Notes under the pieces: model-generated
The model's input: the letters and a program-made list of their open reading frames with translations, nothing else
What the model was told of the DNA's origin: nothing
The model's database searches: none
Shown here: piece by piece, positions 5,528 to 14,334 of the stretch
Position numbering within the stretch: position 1 is the stretch's first letter
Layout: every line of letters starts with the position of its first letter
Made by a program: the position numbers and the translations under genes
Virus record (IMG/VR): IMGVR_UViG_3300046529_001330
Span: 1-34,738 of that record
DNA length: 34,738 nucleotides
Origin: a virus
Reading direction: 5' to 3' (one strand)

Positions 5528-6016
5528 CTATTCGATCCTCAGATACCCGTACCCGCGGGCCATCTCGGCCGCCTCCCGGGACTTGTGGTAGCAGCCGTCG
5601 CCGTCGCGCGAGCCCGCGGCGTTGGTGTTGCCCTCCATCGTCTCCAGGCTGTCGTTGTTGGCCTGGAAGGGGCCGATGCAGAAGCCGGTGTGGCCGATGC
5701 GCGTGCCGAGCTTGGAGAGGCCGTGGTCGATCAGGAACAGGCCGTTGTAGACCGGCTGCGCCATCTGGAGGTCGGGGTTGCGAATCCAGAGCTTGTTGAC
5801 GGACCCGCCGTACTGAAACCTTGGAAGTACTCCAAGACGCTTGGCAGCCGACTTGATGCAGAAGCACACGAAGGCCGCGCACCAGGGGTCGCCCGGAGAC
5901 AGCCCCAGCGAGCGCTGGAAGGCCTCGACCTGGGGGCCGCGGTTGTTGCCTCCGATCTCGCGCACGCCGTCGTAGGACAGCGCGATTTCGATGGCGAGTT
6001 CAGCGAGTGTCGTCAC
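5528..6016 (-). CDS. CHAP-domain peptidoglycan hydrolase (endolysin or virion lysin)
   Basis: 162 residues, a single catalytic domain without a recognisable wall-binding domain. The CHAP-type Cys/His pair is visible: Cys46 in SPGDPWCAAFVCFCI, His109 in RIGHTGFCIG, and a polar residue in METMEGNTN-like context (seen as LETMEGNTN, about 125-131). It probably cuts the peptide part of the host wall. It overlaps the upstream adhesin gene by 4 bases and sits at the end of the fibre block, so either lysis or local wall cutting during infection is possible. No signal peptide is seen. Confidence 0.85.
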   Translation of the reverse strand: MTTLAELAIEIALSYDGVREIGGNNRGPQVEAFQRSLGLSPGDPWCAAFVCFCIKSAAKRLGVLPRFQYGGSVNKLWIRNPDLQMAQPVYNGLFLIDHGLSKLGTRIGHTGFCIGPFQANNDSLETMEGNTNAAGSRDGDGCYHKSREAAEMARGYGYLRIE

Positions 6017-6945
6017 GGGGTTCCGTCTGAACCGTCCGAACCGTTCTCGCGGAAGATCTGGTCGTCGGTTCCGCCGAAGTGGTAGATGCGCCCAGCCTTG
6101 CCCTTCTTGCCGCCGAACGCGGTTCCGTGGCCGGTACCACCGACGCCGCCGTCGACGTTGATGGTACCATCGACGATGAGCTGGCCGTAAATCAGGATGA
6201 TGACCCCACCCGCTCCGGCTCCACCGCCGCCAGCGCTGGCCGATCCGGCCTCCGCATCGCCGCCGTAGCCGCCGACAGCGTACAAGGCCCCGCCTCCTTG
6301 GATCTCGATGATGGGAGCTGCCAAAACGAACATTCCCCCACTGCCACCTCCACCGCCGCCTGCGCTGGTGCCGTCCGCAGATCCGCCACCACCACCACCT
6401 CCGGCCATGAACTTCTGGATGGCGCCGTTGATGATCGAGTGACCCTGGAACAGGTTGTTCCAGTCACCTTCCGTACCCATGAGGTCGTCGTTCGAGACGA
6501 GGCCCGCGGCACCGCCGACGCGGCCAAAGGATGCTCCTCCGGCGCCGCCTGATTGGCCGATGCTGCCGGTGCCGCCGCCGCCCGGGGCCCCCGTGTTGTT
6601 CTCGTTGCCGCCGTTGCCGCCAGCGTAACCGCCGGGGAGGACGCCCGGCACTGGAGCCGGGCCACCAGCTCCGCCCGTCGTGCCCACGCCGCCCGCGCCA
6701 TTTCGGCCGTTGGCGTGGACGAAAACGCCAGGTCCAACGATGATCTTTCGGGTCGCGATGAAGATGTTGCCGGACATGTTGACGGAGTAGTCTGGATCCC
6801 CACCGCTGGTCTTGACGAACTGGAGCGTCTTGTAGGTCGCCATGCCGATGCCAGACAGGTCCGCTTCGCTGCCGACTTGAAAGTCACCGTTCAGTCCCGC
6901 GCCGAAGAAGAACGGGTCAATGCCGCCGTATCCCCTGAGTGCCAT
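6013..6945 (-). CDS. Glycine-rich tail fibre/adhesin
   Basis: 310 residues. A conserved-looking N-terminus (about 1-75) is followed by long Gly-rich stretches at about 80-150 and 178-270 with runs of six to eight Gly separated by short beta strands (MFVLAAPIIEIQGGGALYAVGGYGG; GVIILIYGQLIVDGTINVDGG). Such patterns occur in phage adhesins that pack polyglycine helices, as in the tip adhesins of some T-even-like phages, and in other Gly-rich fibre proteins. It overlaps the lysin gene by 4 bases and follows the large fibre gene by 1 base. Receptor binding is inferred. Confidence 0.78.
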   Translation of the reverse strand: MALRGYGGIDPFFFGAGLNGDFQVGSEADLSGIGMATYKTLQFVKTSGGDPDYSVNMSGNIFIATRKIIVGPGVFVHANGRNGAGGVGTTGGAGGPAPVPGVLPGGYAGGNGGNENNTGAPGGGGTGSIGQSGGAGGASFGRVGGAAGLVSNDDLMGTEGDWNNLFQGHSIINGAIQKFMAGGGGGGGSADGTSAGGGGGGSGGMFVLAAPIIEIQGGGALYAVGGYGGDAEAGSASAGGGGAGAGGVIILIYGQLIVDGTINVDGGVGGTGHGTAFGGKKGKAGRIYHFGGTDDQIFRENGSDGSDGTP

Positions 6946-8672: not shown

Positions 8673-8678
8673 AAGATT
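8673..8678 (-). promoter_or_regulatory. AATCTT 5' element (before large fibre gene)
   Basis: AATCTT in the context CGCAATCTTAAGGG, 10 bases before the ATG at 8662 and 12 bases downstream of the tRNA-Ser(GCU) 3' end. Member of the recurrent minus-strand set. The fibre gene may thus have its own start signal independent of the tRNA transcript. Confidence 0.5.
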
Positions 8679-8690
8679 GCGTGTCGTCAG

Positions 8691-8782
8691 AGGAAACGGA
8701 GAGAGTCGAACTCTCGGGGCCCCTCGACGGGGCCCATCTACTTAGCAGGCAGACGTGACGAACCGACAGTCACCTCGTTTCC
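8691..8782 (-). tRNA. trnS-GCU: tRNA-Ser(GCU), class II with long variable arm
   Basis: Read on the minus strand: acceptor stem GGAAACG/CGTTTCC (7 bp); D stem GTGA/TCAC with GG in the loop; anticodon stem TCTGC/GTAGA with loop CTGCTAA, hence anticodon GCT (reads AGC and AGT); long variable arm GGGCCCC/GGGGCCC with a 5-base loop; T arm GAGAG/CTCTC with loop TTCGACT. The long arm is diagnostic of serine tRNAs. The discriminator base appears to be T, where bacterial tRNA-Ser usually has G, and CCA is not encoded. Bases 8-9 read AG rather than the usual T at 8. Confidence 0.88.
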
Positions 8783-8793
8783 AGATGGATTCG

Positions 8794-8883
8794 AGGAGGG
8801 ATGAGGAGTTGAACCCCCAGGGCTATAAACCACTGCTATCCCGGTGTTCGAGGCCGGTTGCCGTCCACACAGCAGATCCCTCC
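8794..8883 (-). tRNA. trnS-CGA: tRNA-Ser(CGA)
   Basis: Read on the minus strand: acceptor stem GGAGGGA/TCCCTCC (7 bp); D stem TGCT/GGCA with loop GTGTGGAC; anticodon stem CCGGC/ACCGG (four pairs and a C-A closing mismatch) with loop CTCGAAC, hence anticodon CGA, reading TCG. The anticodon arm closely resembles that of E. coli tRNA-Ser(UGA). The variable region is about 23 bases but its stem is weak (GGG/CCC with interruptions). The T arm is GGGGG, loop TTCAACT, CCTCA with a mismatch at its base. Discriminator T, no encoded CCA. It lies 11 bases upstream of tRNA-Ser(GCU) in the same transcript direction. Confidence 0.82.
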
Positions 8884-8884
8884 G

Positions 8885-8902
8885 AAGTCGCTTTAGCGAC
8901 TC
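8885..8902 (-). promoter_or_regulatory. Hairpin holding the stop codon of the serine ORF
   Basis: On the minus strand GAGTCGC-TAAA-GCGACTT folds into a 7-bp stem (one G-T pair) with a four-base loop. The loop contains the TAA stop of the poly-serine ORF, and the 3' side ends one base before the 5' end of tRNA-Ser(CGA). There is no T tract, so it is not a classical terminator. It could respond to ribosome position or shape tRNA 5' processing. Confidence 0.65.
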
Positions 8903-8940
8903 GACGAAGAAGAGCTACTGGACGATGACAGGTGCTTCAC
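8893..8940 (-). CDS. Poly-serine leader peptide MKHL-Ser10-Arg (15 aa)
   Basis: GTG at 8940, TAA at 8895-8893. The product is MKHLSSSSSSSSSSR. The ten consecutive Ser codons use all six serine codons: TCG three times, TCT and AGT twice, TCA, TCC and AGC once. Mixing TCN and AGY codons cannot come from simple slippage, so the run looks selected. The AATCTT element ends 9 bases before the GTG, as before other genes here; a Shine-Dalgarno match is weak (GAG). The two downstream tRNA-Ser genes read six of the ten codons. I infer a leader peptide whose translation senses charged tRNA-Ser. Alternative: the frame is continuous, through one TGA (8970-8968), with the upstream tail gene, so it could be a readthrough tail. 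Confidence 0.6.
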   Translation of the reverse strand: MKHLSSSSSSSSSSR

Positions 8941-8949
8941 GGTGATCTC

Positions 8950-8969
8950 AAGATTAAGTCTACTGAATC
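8950..8969 (-). promoter_or_regulatory. Composite 5' element before the serine cassette
   Basis: On the minus strand GATTCAGTAGA (8969-8959) matches the first 11 bases of the plus-strand 17-mer found at 1631, 29061 and 32286, and overlaps the TGA of the upstream gene just as copy 2 at 29061 overlaps its upstream TGA. Four bases... after it, AATCTT (8955-8950) matches the element found before other minus-strand genes. This is the only place in the window where both occur together. A promoter for the serine leader and tRNAs is inferred. Confidence 0.5.
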
Positions 8970-9393
8970 ATCCGAGCTTCCGCACCTCATTGTTGTACGA
9001 AAGTGCGGAAAAGCTCACCGAGCCCGAGGCCAGGCCCTTGGCCTCGAACGACCAGCTTTGGCTCTCGACCGAGCAGAAATCGGCTTGGAAAACCACGGTC
9101 TGCGAGACCAGGTCGATCAGCAGGATGTTGAAGTACTTCTCGCGCGGCAGCTCCTCCAGGGGTGCCACCATGCCCGGCCCCTCGACGGCTCCGTCCAGGT
9201 GGGTGCGGTAGAGCCCCATCGAGCCCGACACGTTGGTCACGCCCGTGGCCAGCTCGAACGGCAGCACCGAGTCGACGGTGTGGATCTTGCGGCGCGGGGT
9301 GTCGACGCTGTAGCTGAAACGGCTGACCCGACCGAACGGGTTGCCGTTGACAAACAGGACGACCTGTGCTGACGAAAGTAGGATCGAAGGCAT
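8968..9393 (-). CDS. Tail tube-like protein (141 aa)
   Basis: The sequence follows the layout of phage tail tube proteins of similar size: an N-terminal strand with VVLFVNGNPFGRVSRFSYSVDTPRR, a middle PFELATGVTNVSGSMGLYRT, a DGAVEGPGM loop, and YFNILLIDLVSQTVVFQADFCSVESQSWSFEAKGLASGSVSFSAL at the end. Members form stacked rings around the DNA channel. The ATG overlaps the stop of the kelch gene (TAATG). The stop TGA is in frame with the poly-serine ORF downstream. A tube initiator or completion ring rather than the main tube is possible, given that the neighbours are baseplate and fibre genes. Confidence 0.65.
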   Translation of the reverse strand: MPSILLSSAQVVLFVNGNPFGRVSRFSYSVDTPRRKIHTVDSVLPFELATGVTNVSGSMGLYRTHLDGAVEGPGMVAPLEELPREKYFNILLIDLVSQTVVFQADFCSVESQSWSFEAKGLASGSVSFSALSYNNEVRKLG

Positions 9394-12883: not shown

Positions 12884-13612
12884 TTACGAGATGGCGTACT
12901 TCGTTTTGAGGAACTGCTCGACTGCCGCGATCTGGGCGGCGGTGAGGGTGACGTTGAACACGAGGATGCGGGCGATGTCACCGATGAGGAACACGCCAGG
13001 GACGCCAGGGACGCCTCCCGAGAACCAAACCCCCACGTGGTAATTGACCGGGCTGGCCGTGGGGAAACTGGTATCAGCAACCGTGTTGGTGATCCACGTG
13101 CCCGAGAGGTTCCAGTTGACCTTGTCGTAACTCGCAGTGCCACGATAGACGGTGGCGGTCGCCAACGTATTGCTCCCGAGGCCGATATTGGCGTTGGGCC
13201 CGCCCCAGCCTGCCTGGAAGATGTCGGCGCCGCTGCCGAGGGAGATGGCCCAGTCGGCGTGCGCGGGGTTCTCGGAGGCGTGAAGAACGGTCCCGTAGAG
13301 GTTGAGCGACCCTCCGGTCTTGGCCACGAAGAACACCGTCACGCCCGTGGAGCCCAACGCGTAGCTCCCGTTCATGTACTTGGTGCCATCGAAGCGGAGG
13401 ACGTTGTGTCCGTTGATCCCGTTGCTGGTCTTCTTCAAGATCGGCTGGCTGCCGCCCGTTCCCTGGGTAGCGTCGTTTCCGCTGCCCGTCGGCGCGGCGT
13501 TCGGCCACGTAGCGATGGAGTCGCCGTCGTTGCCGGACACGTTGTCGCCATCCAGGTCCAGGACCAGGTGGTCGAACATGTTCGGGCGGAAGCCGTGGCC
13601 GAGGCCGGGCAT
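12884..13612 (-). CDS. LamG/concanavalin A-like lectin fibre protein (242 aa)
   Basis: The sequence follows the familiar jelly-roll pattern: DHLVLDLDGDNVSGNDGDSIATWPNAAPTGSGNDATQ, then GINGHNVLRFDGTKYMNGSY, a central TVFFVAKTG, and near the end GVFLIGDIARILVFNVTLTAAQIAAVEQFLKTKYAI. These are the hallmarks of LamG/concanavalin A-like carbohydrate-binding domains attached to surface proteins. ATG at 13612 overlaps the upstream TAA (TAATG). Role: probably receptor or exopolysaccharide binding. Confidence 0.82.
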   Translation of the reverse strand: MPGLGHGFRPNMFDHLVLDLDGDNVSGNDGDSIATWPNAAPTGSGNDATQGTGGSQPILKKTSNGINGHNVLRFDGTKYMNGSYALGSTGVTVFFVAKTGGSLNLYGTVLHASENPAHADWAISLGSGADIFQAGWGGPNANIGLGSNTLATATVYRGTASYDKVNWNLSGTWITNTVADTSFPTASPVNYHVGVWFSGGVPGVPGVFLIGDIARILVFNVTLTAAQIAAVEQFLKTKYAIS

Positions 13613-14334
13613 TACGACACCGTCAGGTATTCGAAGCCGACGAGGACCCAGTCGGCCCCGTTGTAGTAGAACGTCGCGCCCTGCTTCTGTGAAGGGGCCG
13701 AGGCGAACGTGAACAGGGTTCCCGCAGCGCCGCCGCCGTTGACGATCACCATGGTGTGCGCCGCGGTGTCCGCGCGCACGATCCTGAGGAGCGTGCCGGT
13801 GACGACCGAGGTCGTGCCGAGGGTCTTGGTACGCGTGGCGCCGAGCGCGGTGGTCTGAACGTATTCGGAAACGGCGTCCGTACCGGGCTGGAGCGTCTGG
13901 TCGGCGTCCGTGAGCGCGGTGCCCTGGAGCGGACGGTAGATGTGATTGAGCTTGTCCTTGTCCGCGGCCGGCATGAGGCCGGGGGTCGTCGTGGTCGCGG
14001 AGTCGATCACGGAGGCGGCGTATGTGCTCAGCAGCAGGAAGAGGTTGGAGCTGACGTAGAACGAGGCAGTCTTGGGCGGTCCGCCTCCGGCGAGCGTGGC
14101 GAGCGTGGTGCCCGAGGTGTTCTTGACGATGAGGTTCCCGCTGGGGTTCCCGCTCTCCAAGATCACGCGAACGACGTACTTGTCGGCCAGGCTGGTGGCG
14201 TCGAGAGTGACGGTGCGGTTCGTGGACAAAGTCCCGCTGGGGCAGACGTACTCGCTAGCGACGTCTGCGTTCGGATCGACCGTGACGTCGGCATCTGCAA
14301 GTGGGGTGGCGGTGATTGGATTGTAGATGGACAT
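13612..14334 (-). CDS. Tail fibre-like protein with internal duplication (240 aa)
   Basis: Two similar halves: ATPLADADVTVDPNADVASEY...NRTVTL near residue 8-43 and GTALTDADQTLQPGTDAVSEY...TRTKTL near 138-172, each followed by a strand-rich part. Between them lies TTTPGLMPAADKDKLNHI, the G-x-M-x-A-D-K-x-KL motif frequent in phage fibres. Likely a trimeric fibre or shaft protein. The AATCTT element is 7 bases before the ATG. Confidence 0.75.
   Translation of the reverse strand: MSIYNPITATPLADADVTVDPNADVASEYVCPSGTLSTNRTVTLDATSLADKYVVRVILESGNPSGNLIVKNTSGTTLATLAGGGPPKTASFYVSSNLFLLLSTYAASVIDSATTTTPGLMPAADKDKLNHIYRPLQGTALTDADQTLQPGTDAVSEYVQTTALGATRTKTLGTTSVVTGTLLRIVRADTAAHTMVIVNGGGAAGTLFTFASAPSQKQGATFYYNGADWVLVGFEYLTVS

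Follow-up and report, generated by a model that had tools for sequence, protein, structure and literature searches.

The window, i.e. the whole stretch of DNA analysed here, is a virus contig of 34.7 kb (34,738 nucleotides). On its minus strand, an upstream gene is followed, after a 27-nt gap, by a very short leader open reading frame (ORF), then by a tRNA-Ser(CGA) gene located 9 nt behind the leader, a tRNA-Ser(GCU) gene and a downstream gene. The features of this locus are the following:

8968..9393, minus strand: upstream gene, 141 aa; in phage Mx1 it adjoins the counterpart of the downstream gene
8951..8956, minus strand: promoter-like TAATCT, separated by 10 nt from the start of the leader; conserved in the related contigs L002 and L004
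8893..8940, minus strand: leader ORF, MKHL-Ser10-Arg, with a GTG start and a TAA stop; read from the sequence, conserved in frame in L002, L003 and L004
8899..8928, minus strand: ten consecutive Ser codons, the proposed sensing codons; read from the sequence, with a run length beyond that of 200 simulations
8885..8902, minus strand: hairpin GAGTCGC-TAAA-GCGACTT, whose loop contains the stop codon of the leader; predicted in the window, L002 and L004
8793..8883, minus strand: tRNA-Ser(CGA), called by ARAGORN; counterparts in L002 and L004
8690..8782, minus strand: tRNA-Ser(GCU), called by ARAGORN; counterparts in L002 and L004
6947..8662, minus strand: downstream gene, 571 aa, with a hypothetical protein of Myxococcus phage Mx1 as a relative

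Among named phages, Mx1 alone has relatives of both flanking genes, and in this phage these counterparts lie 26 nt apart with no tRNAs between them. Scanning 84,980 species genomes of bacteria and archaea for the upstream gene yielded no match. In bacteria, the discriminator base of tRNA-Ser is usually G73. The tRNA-Ser genes of the window, likewise those of L002 and L004, apparently have a T discriminator (8794; the base after the second acceptor stem) and no encoded CCA. The efficiency of tRNA-Ser charging or the repair of the 3' end may be unusual.

The leader codons read GTG AAG CAC CTG TCA TCG TCC AGT AGC TCT TCT TCG TCG AGT CGC TAA. The serine codons comprise TCG three times, TCT and AGT twice each, and TCA, TCC and AGC once each, i.e. 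all six kinds. Serine accounts for 10/14 of the leader, which is thus rich in the amino acid linked to the downstream genes, as in an attenuator, and its run of ten is the longest over the six frames of the window. By standard pairing, the two tRNA-Ser together can read 6/10 of these codons (TCG, AGC and AGT), the remaining 4/10 being outside the reach of both; over ten window ORFs, 66% of the Ser codons are within reach of the same two tRNAs. An earlier note on this DNA had described a 15-codon minus-strand ORF with ten serines and all six codon kinds, had judged such a run very unlikely to occur by chance and had placed two tRNA-Ser genes reading six of the ten codons right behind it. The sequence agrees exactly with this description, no Ser run exceeds seven in 200 windows simulated by a Markov model with matched dinucleotide content, and the ARAGORN calls and pairing rules concur on the tRNAs.

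The leader and both tRNAs are present in all three related contigs found (L002, L003 and L004), and both tRNA-Ser genes are found wherever the leader occurs. The leader of L002 and L003 is identical to that of the window, though the tRNAs behind it have diverged. The most diverged relative of the cassette, L004, is contig G001 (182 kb). Its leader (ATG AAG CGC ACG TCA TCT AGC AGT CCG TCT TCG TCG AGT CGC TAA) encodes MKRTSSSSPSSSSR (MKRT-SSSSPSSSS-R) and differs from that of the window by an ATG instead of a GTG start, the loss of one in-frame codon, synonymous Ser exchanges and one Ser to Pro replacement, with the same stop. The family sample therefore consists of just two distinct leader sequences (window/L002/L003 versus L004). 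Relatives keeping the tRNAs and devoid of the Ser run had been named as the finding that would speak against the proposed leader; the opposite was seen, the run being kept in all three tRNA-bearing contigs.

Upstream of the ORF, the TAATCT element sits within the conserved GACTTAATCTTGAGATC (8944-8960), and the downstream gene has an AATCTT of its own at 8673-8678. This hexamer occurs 64 times in G001, and in 34 of these cases an ORF starts right after it; nine control hexamers (3-10 occurrences each in G001) lie before ORF starts in about 30% of cases. Because of this frequency before ORF starts in G001, AATCTT is probably a phage promoter element, and the conserved copy upstream of the leader may be the leader's own promoter. 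A scan for the GACTTAATCTTGAGATC motif returned two extra matches (L014 and L015), which were dismissed as chance matches in AT-rich sequence. At the other end of the leader, the predicted stop-codon hairpin (7 bp, one G-U pair in L004) is located directly 5' of the tRNA in all variants. In the window, the U-tract (T-run) characteristic of an intrinsic terminator does not follow the hairpin at 8885-8902, and Rfam gives no amino-acid leader or T-box match.

Sensing of the downstream tRNA's amino acid by the leader would imply that different leaders stand before other arrays. In G001, the Leu, Phe-to-Gln and Asn-to-Arg arrays are indeed also led by ORFs of their own amino acids, the leader being taken as the first ORF after the shared TAATCT element, independently of its composition. 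Three tRNA-Leu genes follow the leader MFTRLLSRLSLLLA, the end of which overlaps a hairpin that resembles a terminator and has a T5 tract. The leader MLTATTYTTIRTGITTGGRIVRYPRHQQHQRPAQGALDRFDPSGIK precedes a Phe-Asp-Pro-His-Tyr-Thr-Thr-Gln-Ile-Arg-Arg-Gln array, with a match in 9/9 residue kinds, and MLTNTNVNVMIAEANKAEANVCAAGMGWAGGAKVEATLK precedes an Asn-Val-Val-Ala-Lys-Met-Gly-Gly-Lys-Trp-Glu-Arg-Arg array, with a match in 8/9. Each of the four G001 leaders shows enrichment for the amino acids of its own array and of none of the others, and their own assignment is the best of 24. No leader was found for the tRNA-Cys or for the Arg pair of this contig, and scans for neighbours of its other arrays and for TTAATCTACTGAGNGTTCCA returned only G001 itself or leaderless protease loci.

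Several other elements were observed in G001. GATTCGATAG, usually followed by AA or AG, is found at 26 intergenic sites on both strands (e.g. c15135, c76192 and c104978) and also ahead of the TAATCT of 3/4 leaders; the window, G004 and G005 have almost no copies of it. HNH-like homing-endonuclease genes are apparently inserted beside or inside the tRNA arrays (L004, about 5720-6192; L026, about 13,540-13,990). tmRNA genes are called by ARAGORN near large tRNA sets, both in G001 (C1, 97012-97394, minus strand) and in Mx1 (46646-47022, plus strand).

Leaders of the same kind were looked for in 120 IMG/VR stretches with tRNA arrays, plus the contigs behind some of them. They are not universal, a terminator being present just upstream of the array in 13/267 surveyed arrays. 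G017 has three paralogous leaders, all starting with MRTI: MRTINKHKHFSKSSKWFSNKS... before Lys/His/Phe/Trp tRNAs, MRTILNILVSSSRSSSG... before Arg/Ser and MRTINLNMINVNNTLN... before Asn. In G019, MRLLSLSSSPSLSSYYLSLP.. precedes {Tyr, Leu, Ser}, MRQHKQWQRNQHA.. precedes {Arg, Met, Trp, Gln, His, Asn, Lys}, MKSMVEFVGAVATVVAAEAAEGVD.. precedes {Val, Gly, Asp, Ala, Glu} and MRMRPTFRFRPQP.. precedes {Pro, Phe}. The four leader-bearing groups of this 187-kb phage (L183-L186) have almost no amino acid in common, a sorting that suggests functional grouping. G018 has two leaders of the same design. The four IMG/VR leaders compared have no DNA similarity to named phages, and on L168, L184, L185 and L186 Rfam returned nothing but tRNA matches. 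Three related leaders (..CRYWHIEGTPLFADMERHM type; L067, L110 and L178) precede long mixed arrays; these leaders have nearly all amino acids in them and are possibly general translation sensors.

Cultivated phages are concerned as well. Cellulophaga phi4:1 has three leaders, MKIQRLHLQELEQP.., ..KKIKVQLTKTGITVIDKTKGARA.. (the start of which is uncertain) and MKTNYCTYNNSNWSFSY.., within the regions 87,065-87,200, 88,000-88,170 and 89,771-89,925 (approximate positions in NC_021788); Caulobacter CcrBL9 has two, MTRIHTTLPTAKPASTGALTLASWPASSKPLLRHSAVLA and MYRQFVRQIQSVRVNR..; and Mycobacterium Phabba has one, MFALLSLSSSLRLS, before Ser, Leu, Leu and Leu. Phabba resembles the window: its tRNA-Ser is immediately preceded by a GC-rich hairpin that lacks a U-tract, and a 9-bp leader-tRNA pairing is possible. 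In Reindeer, the GTG ORF MIGKAENTEDEDWDF, located ahead of a Lys/Ile/Gly/Val/Thr/Ala/Asp/Glu array, is no more than suggestive (p = 0.006). An Asn-rich match in Smoothie looks like the end of an HNH gene and was discarded, and no convincing leader was found in the tRNA-bearing phages Mx1, Stenotrophomonas RAS14, Aegeus and Phosso.

In these apparently unrelated phages, most leaders are followed by an intrinsic terminator, and in many the ORF itself contains an antiterminator arm. The terminator begins 19-34 nt past the leader stop in 13 leaders, and in 8 of the 13 the antiterminator arm reaches the 2% level of shuffles, with one more at 3.3%. In many leaders, the ORF end is complementary to the 5' arm of the terminator, as in CTGTCCTTGGT:ACCAAGGACAG of G019 and TGAGGGTTTT:AAAACCCTCA of G017, and the full set of alternative stems is predicted for array 2 of CcrBL9: 1:2 (-11.1 kcal/mol), 2:3 (12 bp, -25.4) and 3:4 (-27.5, then TTTTCTTTT). 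These predicted folds have the textbook geometry of ribosome-mediated attenuators, in which a stall on the control codons would favour the antiterminator, and the predicted output in several of these phages is evidently transcription termination versus antitermination. For a statistical evaluation of composition, every array with an upstream terminator was considered and its leader ORF picked by position alone, which gave 18 leaders. The amino-acid set of the array behind the leader ranked first of 18 in 13/18 cases and never below fourth, with a mean rank fraction of 0.059 (KS p = 2e-13; the effective n is somewhat below 18, because a few of the leaders are related). Composition had served to select some of the leaders behind the combined Fisher value, which is inflated for this reason; the position-only test should be relied on instead.

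Taken from sequence comparison, the poly-Ser ORF of the window can be read, with a probability of about 0.8, as the sensing part of a ribosome-mediated, attenuator-like switch controlling the two downstream tRNA-Ser genes. For the sensing half, analogy and conservation provide good support: the earlier proposal that the leader senses charged tRNA-Ser gains from the conservation of the run and from the match between composition and tRNAs across arrays and phages. A ribosome would translate the short leader and, with Ser-tRNA for its codons plentiful, would reach the stop codon and be released, the RNA then taking an OFF fold. With Ser-tRNA scarce, it would stall in the Ser run and block the pairing of that stretch, and tRNA-Ser would be made. 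Leader translation, stalling and the rise of output at low charging are the steps that we infer.

The output half is a different matter. The same earlier note had likened the arrangement to an amino-acid-operon attenuator; the leader rich in cognate codons fits this comparison, and the U-tract terminator is missing from the window. As there is no U-tract, the OFF step would be one of two events, either a non-intrinsic termination at the stop-codon hairpin, or a misfolding of the tRNA 5' half against the leader, from which a stalled ribosome would free the tRNA for maturation. With no more than 20-60 nt of tRNA included in the fold, the leader of each of the three variants is predicted to pair with the tRNA 5' half. 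This pairing is no better than in synonymous shuffles (198, 35 and 344 of 1000) and was rejected as a selected structure; in the window, it is the only candidate found in place of an antiterminator. Because its output half has neither a U-tract, nor an Rfam match, nor a significant pairing, the window is filed as working like an attenuator rather than as a proven member of the class.

The hairpin conserved in all variants, the extended pairing with the tRNA 5' half in all three of them and the similar 9-bp pairing in Phabba could also belong to an RNA element for tRNA maturation, in which a processing hairpin would be combined with a pyrimidine-rich tract pairing with the G-rich 5' end of tRNA-Ser, and the Ser reading would be a by-product. 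Such an element is unlikely: besides the result of the synonymous shuffles, the mixture of TCN and AGY codons and the in-frame deletion favour coding, and it would remain unexplained why arrays for Leu, Asn, Gln, Lys or Ala have matching leaders.

Two further explanations are very improbable. In the window and in L002, the leader shares the reading frame of the upstream gene, and this frame is open from TGA 8968 to TAA 8893, so that the Ser stretch as a C-terminal extension of the upstream protein, produced by TGA readthrough and unrelated to the tRNAs, had to be excluded. In L004, however, the upstream frame is shifted and readthrough meets a second TGA (FDRLNLEIVP*), whereas the Ser ORF keeps its own ATG; the open frame is thus not conserved, and independent translation is the better reading. 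That the leader is a chance low-complexity ORF or a tRNA-gene remnant without function would suit a small family sample with two distinct sequences, as well as the existence of arrays without any leader, but it hardly agrees with a run longer than any simulated one, with the frame kept in L004 and with the same logic in independent arrays and phages.

The attenuator-like switch has its closest relatives in the amino-acid operon attenuators of the trp, his, leu, thr and phe type, with which it shares a short leader ORF, a run of control codons and the proposed sensing by ribosome stalling; G017, G018, G019, phi4:1 and CcrBL9 also share the terminator and antiterminator geometry. In contrast to these attenuators, the phage leaders sit before tRNA genes rather than biosynthetic genes, one leader often covers many amino acids at once, and the window has no U-tract terminator. 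T-box riboswitches respond to tRNA charging upstream of amino-acid-related genes. Unlike the phage leaders, however, they bind tRNA directly, without a leader peptide, and the phage leaders checked have no Rfam match. With phage tRNA arrays in general, the downstream product, phage tRNA genes, is the same, and the proposed leader-peptide control is the difference. The earlier note knew of no described phage tRNA cassette with such a leader, and the open-access full texts that the search covered likewise yielded no description of leader-peptide control of phage tRNA operons; within this scope, novelty is likely rather than proven.

The leaders bear on the question of when and why phages express their tRNAs. 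By listing the amino acids of the downstream tRNAs, they suggest that phages gauge charged tRNA and produce tRNAs of their own only when it is short; judged from these sequences, phages probably switch on their own tRNAs when those of the host run short. A more tentative generalization is that phages of several bacterial groups split their tRNAs into arrays and place each array under a leader that reads the shortage of these very tRNAs, so that production would follow demand, as when tRNAs are cut by host defences, and that the switch of the window family acts on tRNA folding or maturation and not on transcription. The leaders also reveal how a phage groups its tRNAs for regulation, and the supply-versus-defence debate becomes directly testable in the cultivated phi4:1, CcrBL9 and Phabba. 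If true, the control of folding or maturation in the window family would be a new output for leader-peptide attenuation.
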